A stretch of DNA of 64,000 nt from an uncultured Owenweeksia sp. Lineage in GTDB: Bacteria; Bacteroidota; Bacteroidia; Flavobacteriales; Schleiferiaceae. Positions 1 through 4,780 of the stretch are shown here, one piece after another (the first letter of the stretch is position 1; every line of letters begins with the position of its first letter). The stretch lies in assembly GCA_937146805.1 (NCBI GenBank), contig CAKZRR010000057.1:1-64000 (forward strand), in the 5' to 3' direction. The notes below the pieces were generated by a model that made no database searches, had not been told where the DNA came from, and saw only the letters and a list, made by a program, of their open reading frames with translations. The position numbers were made by a program, and so were the translations under genes.

Positions 1-212
1 CGGAGAATGAAGCCAAGTTAAAGCCTTTAATGGGCAACTATAGAATCAATGAAAAGTCAGTGCGTAAGTTGTTTTTAGAAGACGGAAAAGTTTTTTCCCA
101 ACGTGATGACGGTCATAAATTTCCGGTTATACCTATGGCGAATAATGGTTTTTATTATGAAGGCTCGCTCACTTATTTTTTATTGAAAAAGATGCATAAG
201 GTAATCAAGTGA
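1..212 (+). CDS. C-terminal end of a truncated gene (hydrolase accessory-domain-like)
   Basis: An open frame runs in from before the window (codons from base 3) and stops at 212, giving about 69 C-terminal residues. The pattern of short beta-strand segments (GNYRI, then KLFLEDGKVFSQRDDG, then FYYEGSLTYF) resembles the small C-terminal beta domain (DUF3471-like) found at the end of many Bacteroidota serine hydrolases and metallopeptidases. No catalytic residue lies in the visible part, so the enzyme cannot be identified. An internal ATG at 30 exists but the frame is open upstream of it, so I read this as a gene cut by the window edge. Confidence 0.5.
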   Translation, partial: ENEAKLKPLMGNYRINEKSVRKLFLEDGKVFSQRDDGHKFPVIPMANNGFYYEGSLTYFLLKKMHKVIK

Positions 213-337
213 TGAGTTTTTATTCGGGTTTAAGTGATGAGAGGAATAAGGCGGTTAGGGATTAGGGAGGATGGCCAGGCTTATTGTTAATCAAGAATTC
301 TGGCTCGATGTGTTACTTCCAAAAGTGGCAATGAAAG

Positions 338-410
338 ACCTGACCCCAGAAATTTCTTAATCAACAAACCTGACCCGTTATTTTTTATACGCTAAAGTCA
401 GGTTGTTTGA
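338..410. repeat. Clustered CCTGAC repeats and an imperfect hairpin
   Basis: The motif ACCTGACCC occurs directly at 338-346 and 368-376. Its inverted form GTCAGGTT occurs at 397-404. Bases 361-374 and 397-410 pair as a 14-bp inverted repeat with two mismatches around a 22-base loop. It lies between the plus-strand gene end at 212 and the minus-strand fragment end at 420, so it could be a terminator or a scar of an old insertion. No U-tract follows the stem on either strand and no transposase is present, so neither role is established. Confidence 0.35.
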
Positions 411-419
411 AAATGGTTT

Positions 420-926
420 CTAATGATAATCATCGTTTAGTACAGCACTATCGAATTCATCAGAACGTTCATATTCAACTAATAAATCTCTTAAACTACC
501 TCTCCTTATTTTTGGACTAGCTTCAATCATCGCTTTTAAGCATGTCTTTGCTCTTTTAATATTCCCGTATTTATTGTATATCTCTTCGAATAAATATGAG
601 ATATCAGTTTCTTGCGCATACAAACACATAGCGCCAATCCATCTGTCAACAATTGATATTTCAGATAAACTAATATTTCTATTCGTTTTTAACTCTTCCG
701 AAACTAGATGTTCCTGATAACGAAAATGACCAAAGGAGTATTTAGATGTAATAGGATCAATCACTAGGACATTACATGGGTTTATAAGTTCTTCCAAGCA
801 CTCTGCTAACATTTTATTGCTGTAGCTATCTGATAAACTGTTCTTTAGTGCTGTAAGCATTTTTGCTTTTGTTAATGAGAAGCTGGAAACGGGGAAATCT
901 ACATGGGCAGAAAAAGAGCTGCGCAT
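420..926 (-). pseudogene. C-terminal fragment of a NACHT/STAND-type NTPase
   Basis: The frame gives up to 168 residues. Its core contains SFGHFRYQEHLVSEEL, which matches the helical segment after the nucleotide-binding region of NACHT/STAND proteins (the F-x-H-x-x-x-Q-E-x-L pattern). No Walker A or B is present, so only the C-terminal part of such a protein remains. The first 20 or so codons (about 870-926) are antisense to sequence that reads as helicase on the other strand, so the true fragment probably begins near 845-870. Both genes lost their 5' ends at the same point. NACHT proteins often act in signalling or phage defence, but this piece should not function. Confidence 0.5.
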
Positions 927-927
927 T

Positions 928-3522
928 ATGGGTAAAAATGTGTTGCGAGAACAAGCCTTTCAAGCAATTGAAGTACTTAAGCAGTACACCATTAATGATA
1001 TTTTAAATTTTAAAGATCAGCTTATTGCCAAAAGGCAGGTTAAAGAAAAAGACTTGCAACAGGCGGCCGAAAAAGCAATGACCCGTTTACAGCAAATGGG
1101 ATTTAATGCCGGTGACTTTAGTGGTGGCTATGTTTTTAAAATGCTTAGCAAGTTTGCCGGTAAACCGGAGGATGGTAAGAAGGCCAATAACACGATTAGA
1201 AAAATGGCGACTGGTGAAAGCAATCTGGTATCTAAGGCAAAACAAAGAAATTTTGCTTCGGAGTTAGCGGCTCACGAAAACGAGATTCAAGATTTGCTTA
1301 GCAAGTTTGTTTCCTTTTCGGATTTGAATGTAGACGACCTCATACTTTACAACTTAGTCTTAAAGGATTTGAACACCTTGGCGGTGTTAAAAGAAATTGA
1401 GGAAGCTGTAGAAACAGTTAAAGAGGAATCGAACAAATTGCCTATAGGTCAGTTCCAAAAGATTATAAGTGAGAAACTTAAAAAAGAACCAGCTGAGTTT
1501 TTGTTCGAAAAAATGGGCACACGTTATCAGTATTTTTTTATTGATGAATTTCAAGATACCTCCGTATTGCAATGGACTAATATTCTGCCTTTAATCAACA
1601 ATTCGTTGGCCGAAAAAGGATCGGCTATGTTGGTGGGCGACCCAAAACAGTCCATATTTAGATTTAGAGGTGGTGAGGCGGATTTGTTTATTAACATGGT
1701 CAATGGTAACGATAAGAGCAATAAGGTTTTAGCAGGCAAAAAGGAGCTGGAGTTGTACAAGCGAGAGGCCTTTTTGCTACAGGAAAATTATCGGAGCCAC
1801 CGAAATATAGTGGACTTTAATAATGAACTATTTGCCTTAAGCGCAAAGGAAATGAGCCATCCCGATTTTAGCGAAATTTATAAAGCAAGCAATCAGAACA
1901 AAACGAGTAAAGAGGCGGGCTATGTGCGAATGTGTCGATTTGTAAAAGATAAAGAAGCAAATGCCTTAGAGGTTGAGGTACAGGAGGTTTTGAATACTAT
2001 ACAGGATGGTTTGGAGCGAAATTACCAGTTAAAGGATATGGTGATTTTAATGCGAAACTTAACCAGTGCCGAACCTTTGATGCGCGTTTTAATGGGCGAA
2101 GGAATCCCCGTGATCTCAGAAAAAGGTTTGCTGCTTTCCTCTTCAGCCGAGGTACAGACATTGGTAGCTTTTCTTAAAGTTTTGGCTGGTCCGAATACGC
2201 CCATACTGCGCCTTCCTTTTTTGGAGTATTTGTATAAGCAAAAACCAGGGTGTACGGAGGAGGAAGAATTTGTTTTTTTACGGAAATATTGCAATATGCC
2301 TTTTGAAGAGTGGCAACAATGGTTAGAGAATATATTGCCAAACTATAACTATAAGAAAATAGCACAAAGCTCCTTAACAAGAAAACTTTATGTAGTATCC
2401 ATATCACTAGGGATGGACTTGCATAAAAATATTTTTTTAACCGAATTTTTGGACCAGGTAACAGATTTTGAACTACAGAATGGCAATGATCTTACGGAGT
2501 TTTTAAGATTTTACGAGGACAAAATGTTGACTAAAAGTGTGCAAATTCCTGAAGGTATTTCTGCCGTAAGGCTAATGACTATACATAAAAGTAAAGGGCT
2601 CGAGTTCCCTTTTGTATTAGTGCCCAAGGCGGCTTGGAATTTCAGTCCTTTTGGCGAGTATTTTTGGTATTCAACCGAAGAGTTGGGTTGTGATATTTCT
2701 TTGCCTGTTTTGGTTAAAGCAAAAGAACTGGAAAGTAGTTATAACGTATACAATTTTAGTAGTTTAAACTATATACATAAATCAGAGTTTGACAGCTTAA
2801 ATTTGCTGTATGTTGCTTGCACAAGAGCAGTTGAGGAGCTTCATATAATTTATACCGAATCAAGGTCATCGGCTTCTAAAGCAGAGGGACTATTGAATAA
2901 TACGCAAAGGTTTTTAGATACTATCTATTTTAGAAAGGAAGGAGAAGATGTTAAAGAATGGGGTGTAAAATTGATAAAGGAATTAGGGGTAGAAGAGAGT
3001 GCCGTTGAGGAGCCCAAAAGTTACTGTTTGGGTGTACCTTGGGAACCAGTAAGGGTAACGGGAGATGTGCCAGTTCATTGGGCCCAAGGTGAAAAAGAGG
3101 CTTTAAAAAGAGGTAAGTGGATGCATAAAGTTTTGGCAGATATTTATACCATTGATGATGTGGGTACGGCTTATGAAAGTGCTGAAAAAACGTTTAACGG
3201 AAATACGGAAGAAATGGAACTGTTGCGGGATACGCTTGAAAAGGTAGTGACTCATTCGGAGCTTTCGCGCTTTTTTGCACCTGGTTTGCAGGTAATTAAT
3301 GAGCAAGAGATTTTATTACCACAGGGACAAATAAGGGTGCCAGACAGAGTGGTGTTAGAGGGGAATAAAACCCATGTAATTGACTACAAAACGGGTGTAC
3401 CCGATAAGAAATACCGCTTACAGGTTGATAATTACCAAGGCTTACTCCGCCAAATGGGTTATGAATCAGGGGATTCGGTGTTGGTGTATTTGGACGAGGA
3501 TATGCTCGTGGAAAAATGGTGA
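928..3522 (+). CDS. AddA/RecB-like helicase-nuclease, N-terminally truncated
   Basis: This 864-aa protein has the UvrD-family helicase motifs from motif II onward: DEFQDT (residues 206-211), [15 protein letters not shown] (237-251), ENYRSH, a [10 protein letters not shown] motif V and a YVACTRA motif VI. A C-terminal RecB-type nuclease domain follows, with the DYKTG catalytic motif and a downstream QVDNYQG. Full-length Bacteroidota AddA-like proteins are about 1,040 aa and start with a Walker A (ASAGSGKT-type) segment; here it is absent. The frame stays open upstream of the ATG to about 826 and looks helicase-like from about 871, so the gene lost roughly 165 residues at a junction with the NACHT fragment. 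Nuclease residues are intact but ATP hydrolysis should be lost. The family processes double-strand breaks. Confidence 0.82.
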
Positions 3523-3592: not shown

Positions 3593-4780
3593 ATGTACGG
3601 TAAAATTCAAAACCATTTAAAGCAAGAGCTGGCCAATATTAAGGCAGAAGGACTTTTTAAGTCGGAGCGAATTATTGAGGGCGAGCAGGGAGCTGAGATT
3701 CTGGTAAATGGTGAAACGGTTTTGAATTTTTGCGCCAATAACTACTTAGGCTTATCGTCACATCCACGTGTAATTGAAGCTGCCAAGGCTGCAATGGATA
3801 CACATGGTTTTGGAATGTCATCTGTTCGCTTTATTTGTGGTACACAGGATATTCACAAGGAATTGGAACAGAAAATTGCAGACTTTTTAGGTACGGAAGA
3901 CACTATACTTTATGCCGCTGCTTTTGATGCCAATGGGGGTGTTTTTGAACCTTTACTAACGGCCGAAGATGCTATTATATCCGATTCTCTTAACCACGCC
4001 TCTATTATTGATGGTGTAAGGCTATGTAAAGCACAGCGCTATCGTTATCAGAACAATGATATGGCTGATTTAGAGGCCAAACTGATTGAAGCCAAGGATA
4101 CCGCTCGTTTTAAGATTATTGTTACCGATGGTGTGTTTTCAATGGATGGTTATGTGGCACAATTGGATAAAATTTGCGACTTAGCAGATAAGTACGATGC
4201 CTTGGTGATGGTAGATGAGTGCCACGCAAGCGGTTTTATTGGTAAAACCGGAAGGGGCACTCACGAGTTGAAAAATGTATTAGGAAGAATAGATATTATT
4301 ACCGGTACCCTTGGCAAAGCCTTAGGTGGCGCTATGGGCGGATTTACCTCTGGCCGTAAAGAAATTGTGGAGATGCTTCGTCAGCGTTCGCGCCCTTATT
4401 TATTTTCAAACTCCTTGGCTCCAGCCATTGTTGGCGCTTCTAATGCCGTATTTGATTTGTTGAGCGAGAGCACCGGTTTACGCGATAAGTTAGAAGACAA
4501 CGTAAATTATTTTAAGAAGGGAATTAAAGCAGCTGGCTTTGATATTAAAGATGGCGATTCGGCCATTGTACCTATTATGCTTTACGATGCCGCTTTATCG
4601 CAGCAGTTTGCCAATAAACTGTTAGACGAAGGCATTTACGTAATCGGTTTCTTTTACCCTGTGGTGCCCAAAGAGCAGGCACGTATTAGAGTTCAGTTGA
4701 GTGCAGCACATCAAACCGCACATTTAGATAAAGCAGTAGCTGCCTTTACCAAGGTGGGCAAAGAGCTAGGGGTTATTTAA
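3593..4780 (+). CDS. kbl: Glycine C-acetyltransferase (2-amino-3-ketobutyrate CoA ligase)
   Basis: This PLP enzyme of the alpha-oxoamine synthase family interconverts 2-amino-3-oxobutyrate plus CoA and glycine plus acetyl-CoA, in threonine breakdown. The 395-aa length is that of the family. Visible motifs are the N-terminal [14 protein letters not shown], the substrate-binding region around [18 protein letters not shown] (the PLP ring-stacking/aspartate region) and [10 protein letters not shown] with the PLP lysine near residue 242. The frame is open 71 codons upstream, but that part has no family resemblance and overlaps the helicase gene. The ATG at 3593 gives the standard N-terminus (MYGKIQNHL) and has a -7 element just ahead. 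It stands alone, with its own promoter. Confidence 0.95.

Follow-up and report, generated by a model that had tools for sequence, protein, structure and literature searches.

The left end of contig C57 in this genome carries the larger part of an ordinary addA gene that is split in two and lacks about 198 bp; no novel type of enzyme is involved. The smaller, N-terminal piece lies at the right end of another contig, C37; the two pieces preserve a conserved gene order, are separated by a gap of 66 residues and run into unrelated DNA past each break. As to how the gene came to be split, we give an even chance to interruption in the cell of the addA of a sodA(-)-addA(+)-kbl(+) locus by accessory DNA. 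This reading is slightly favoured over chimerism of the assembly or library because it needs a single event to account for the two breaks and the missing 198 bp. The probabilities worded here and below are judgements and were not computed.

The window, that is the whole 64,000-nucleotide stretch analysed, comprises bases 1-64000 of contig C57 (66,960 bp), so that window base 1, the first base of the contig, is a contig end. The genome (G000) is a draft of 58 contigs and 3.16 Mb that is 98.9% complete, with a shortest contig of at least 1,033 bases. The features at the left of the window are as follows.

1..870, no strand: unrelated tail of C57, 34.7% GC against 39.2% for the window, with no second copy in the genome
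3..212, plus strand: last 69 aa of a gene whose beginning lies beyond the contig start, with no Pfam support
420..869, minus strand: 149 aa, probably from the C-terminal part of a NACHT/STAND protein, with the 5' side cut by the join
862..871, no strand: join at which AddA coding sequence meets unrelated DNA, with homology running from FVNEK (868-882) or one to two codons earlier
868..3522, plus strand: C-terminal part of AddA, about 883 residues, covering the UvrD-like helicase downstream of motif I and on through the PD-(D/E)XK-like domain
3593..4780, plus strand: kbl (glycine C-acetyltransferase / 2-amino-3-ketobutyrate CoA ligase-like), which is the conserved neighbour of addA on its right

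The plus-strand frame through 871 remains open until the stop codon at 3520-3522, giving an open frame of 898 aa. Its match to PF00580 starts at profile position 86, which motif I precedes, and motif I (Walker A) is absent from the C57 piece, as the first-pass annotation had reported for this frame. Further along are a UvrD_C match (PF13361, E 4.4e-27) and a PD-(D/E)XK nuclease-like domain (PDDEXK_1, PF12705, 24.8 bits against a cut-off of 22). The NCBIfam matches of the piece, to the PRK13909 RecB-like helicase, addA_Gpos and recB, all fall below the curated cut-offs, and those of the intact homologue in the same-genus genome G002 do likewise. Strong matches to the C-terminal part were found in 56 of the 59 relatives searched, mostly in frames of at least 1,000 aa. 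When relatives whose frames are about 1,050 aa long are aligned to it, the match starts at residue 1-3 of the frame at 871, which places the start of AddA homology at about 862-871. The earlier reading of coding sequence upstream of the ATG at 928 is thereby borne out, since homology continues to the break, and this ATG is simply the first one in the fragment, not the native start.

The missing N-terminus, with its Walker A, is found at C37:73498-~73837, at the right end of that contig and beside sodA. In a search of the genome with the N-terminus of the G002 protein, C37:73531-73836 matched residues 20-120 with an E-value of 1.7e-29 and 52% identity, and the piece holds an intact Walker A, NASAGAGKT; the same query also gave weak matches in other open frames. 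At about 73837 the frame is broken by unrelated DNA, in which some 35 bp are followed by a glycosyltransferase-61 (GT61) gene on the minus strand (PF04577, E 1.5e-21) and then by the end of another gene, before C37 stops at 74869. Measured against the six relatives aligned, all of which have a full-length frame with Walker A, the gap between the two pieces is in every case exactly 66 residues (198 bp), and once these are counted the length of the gene matches that of AddA. The missing residues turned up nowhere else in the genome: the N-terminal query includes them, and its match, those weak ones aside, stopped at residue 120. Neither piece contains a stop or a frameshift. Identity to the G002 protein is 54% for the N-terminal and 39% for the C-terminal piece; the N-terminal part is also the better conserved between the relatives themselves, so this contrast is what would be expected if the two pieces belong to one gene.

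Gene order, too, connects the two contig ends. In G002, where the locus lies on a single contig, the order is sodA(-), addA(+, 1065 aa), kbl(+). sodA adjoins addA in G001, G002, G003, G015, G019 and G029, and kbl follows it in G002, G015, G019 and G029. All three same-genus genomes have one full-length addA adjoining sodA, with kbl next wherever the stretch compared reaches that far, and from this shared order it follows that the right end of C37 and the left end of C57 were once one locus. The partner subunit AddB is encoded at C38:92586-93422 in a frame of 955 aa, is 49% identical to its G002 homologue over 782 aa and, judged on its sequence, looks intact.

On the other side of the join, the first-pass annotation had placed NACHT-type sequence on the minus strand. 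The frame at 420-869 is there; it has no curated-family match and a weak match to a protein of this kind. Among relatives in the phylum, the best (G481/L194, E 2.1e-4, 27% identity) carries a NACHT domain (PF05729, E 1e-7, over the Pfam cut-off) N-terminal to the matching stretch, in which YSFGHLSFQEHL aligns with YSFGHFRYQEHL of the fragment. Another distant relative in the phylum, L196, shows by eye a P-loop and a DGLDE motif, and in both cases the fragment aligns C-terminal to the NACHT domain with identities of about 25-27%. The weak match thus makes 420-869 a probable C-terminal fragment of a NACHT protein. The NACHT NTPase domain with its P-loop is absent from the fragment, and the 5' part is not on C57. 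No second copy of the fragment was found in the genome or in 198 relatives, and no continuation of it was identified elsewhere in the genome. The claim that both genes are cut at one point holds, addA and the NACHT fragment each ending at the join at about 862-871; of the two N-termini that were to be sought elsewhere, that of AddA was recovered on C37 and the NACHT 5' part was not found.

The short frame at 3..212 is possibly a serine-hydrolase C-terminal domain, a reading that drew no support from Pfam or from the four PF00144 genes of this genome with which it was compared. A search for the other part of either the NACHT gene or a hydrolase gene, broken off at a different contig end, found no PF05729 or PF00144 match that runs off a dead end. 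Between the stop of this first gene and the NACHT fragment, window positions 335-400 contain repeated CCTGACCC motifs with an inverted copy, AACCTGAC...GTCAGGTT, whose predicted hairpin is barely better than those of shuffled sequences (z -1.55).

Beyond each addA break there are 0.87-1.05 kb of unrelated DNA and then the contig end. The two tails are nearly equal in GC content (34.7% and 35.3% against 39%, in the 2nd-4th percentile of the window), both carry intact coding frames, their genes are mostly absent from relatives, and their DNA is unique in the assembly save for one diverged stretch. This stretch is the last 137 bp of C37, which is 78% identical to C20:9941-10077, the end of a complete 534-aa gene; the matching part of C37 is C37:74740-74869 (L044:8741-8870). 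The C20 gene adjoins a gene for an ArsR-type regulator, and its protein, which has no Pfam match, presumably resembles PLP-dependent cystathionine-synthase-like enzymes. As the kbl genes of this genome and G002 diverge to the same degree (77% identity), the C37 tail may come from another species of the genus, or from an old paralogue. A foreign origin cannot be argued from composition, the tails being AT-rich with a normal tetranucleotide make-up. A mobile-element origin was also set aside: plasmids, phages and viral contigs yielded no relative of the NACHT fragment, plasmids none of the GT61 gene, and viral contigs no instance of the junction. A literature search found nothing bearing on the join.

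The state of the contig ends sets the background for both tails. In an end comparison of the readable contigs, with seven short ones of 1.0-2.3 kb that read entirely as N left out (C12, C23, C30, C31, C40, C49 and C56), about two thirds of the ends showed exact 77-base overlaps, as a de Bruijn assembly at k=77 leaves behind. The right tip of C37 and the left tip of C57 overlap no other readable contig end; about 33 ends are in the same position, so the unanchored state of these tips is not special by itself. Dead tips as a class are not AT-rich. The right tip of C43 (C43:125037-126293, L153:2742-3998), likewise unanchored, departs from G002 synteny over its last 1.3-1.5 kb within an open frame and with no gene visibly broken, a single case that says little. 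Elsewhere the terminal 60-77 bases or so are common to ends 2L, 9L, 16L, 17L, 18R, 20L and 58L, and a second group shares its own (3R, 13L, 21L, 35L, 41R, 44L, 53L and 55L); groups of this kind, with six to eight ends each, point to multi-copy repeats in the genome, probably insertion sequences.

The gene is broken between about codons 112 and 179, with some 112 N-terminal codons, Walker A among them, at the right end of C37 and 883 C-terminal codons at the left end of C57. Were addA interrupted by accessory DNA, one recent event in the sequenced strain or population would have replaced about 198 bp of the gene with AT-rich accessory DNA, whose two ends would be the C37 tail with the GT61 gene and the C57 tail with the NACHT fragment, its middle having been neither assembled nor binned. 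That both tails are coding, similarly low in GC and unique apart from one stretch, with genes mostly absent in relatives, speaks for such an event. Against it, the undecayed addA pieces and apparently intact AddB mean that a real break must be very recent, neither tail is anchored, the tips of C57 and C37 having no 77-base overlap, the end of the C37 tail could come from another species of the genus, and the break cuts through the NACHT fragment, where an intact mobile element would have a whole end. An appreciable chance, short of even, is left to assembly or library chimerism, in which addA is intact in the cell and the tails of C37 and C57 arose from rare chimeric fragments or from DNA of a co-occurring strain or species, the middle 198 bp having gone uncovered or landed in a contig that the genome does not include. 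The position of both tails, each about 1 kb long, at unanchored tips of a 58-contig draft with no contig below 1,033 bases fits this account, as do the same undecayed pieces and AddB, and the 78% identity of the C37 tail end to the resident C20 gene is the divergence expected of a sister-species orthologue. It needs, however, two separate misjoins exactly flanking one 198-bp stretch of ordinary coding sequence in a genome that is 98.9% complete; with about 40% amino acid identity between most species, addA has diverged too far for shared 77-mers to bring about a misjoin, which would leave chimeric molecules as the only means, and no copy of the tail DNA exists elsewhere in the assembly.

The first-pass annotation had offered inversion, deletion or chimerism, and the finding of a chimeric or rearranged join stands. 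A simple deletion fusing two neighbours does not, since the AddA N-terminus survives beside sodA with a different foreign neighbour, the GT61 gene; nor does a clean two-break inversion fit unless 198 bp of addA and the 5' part of the NACHT gene were lost as well. A real inversion or translocation with breakpoints in addA and an accessory locus, leaving the addA pieces far apart, is improbable. It draws on two junctions to different non-addA loci and on breaks inside genes, not at element ends, but a clean two-break event should place the NACHT 5' part beside the GT61 gene, and on C37 just some 35 bp lie between the break and the end of that gene; no continuation of the fragment was identified elsewhere. 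Extra deletions would be needed at both loci. Together with insertion, this makes a real interruption of some kind somewhat better than an even bet. We give next to no credence to the Walker-A-less AddA-like helicase that had been proposed, a genuine variant expressed from the ATG at 928. The frame is long and open and includes a nuclease-like domain, but relatives match it strongly in mostly full-size frames, the aligned full-length relatives possess Walker A, homology reaches past this ATG up to the break, and the detached piece on C37, which supplies the missing Walker A, refutes it.

The main value of the result is that a false annotation is avoided: the frame 928-3522 should not be entered as a Walker-A-less helicase. 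Under interruption by accessory DNA the cell would be without the helicase motor of AddA, which would make AddB an orphan; what is left of AddA at the C-terminal side, its native start and upstream region on another contig, would keep the nuclease-like domain and, without motif I, would neither bind nor hydrolyse ATP, a prediction of function that follows from the known mechanism of AddAB and RecBCD. ATPase activity would be lost only if living cells carry the join. A real interruption would amount to accessory DNA turning a recombination gene into a pseudogene in the ordinary way, and double-strand-break repair might be affected. The fuller version, in which the dominant strain has just lost AddA to an island with defence- and polysaccharide-type genes that replaced the 198 bp and left an orphan AddB and a motor-less nuclease-like remnant, we consider rather unlikely. 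If the join is an artefact, the cell has ordinary AddAB, and if chimerism produced it, bases 1-870 of C57 are a chimeric tip that should not be trusted as part of the genome.

Compared with known systems, the locus resembles the AddA/RecB-like helicases of Bacteroidota in its UvrD N and C domains, PD-(D/E)XK-like C-terminus, length and sodA/kbl order; motif I (on C37), the helicase core, UvrD_C, the nuclease-like domain and AddB are all present, and a single uninterrupted coding sequence is the only feature lacking, the gene being split over two contigs with 66 residues missing. The fragment beside it is like the region C-terminal to the NACHT domain of NACHT/STAND proteins (PF05729) and differs in having no NTPase domain. 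Draft genomes commonly contain genes that are cut off at contig tips, and the present case is like the chimeric tips and disrupted genes of such drafts in that a gene is broken at an unanchored contig end and followed by foreign sequence; it is unlike them in that both halves of one gene are affected, with a 198-bp gap between.
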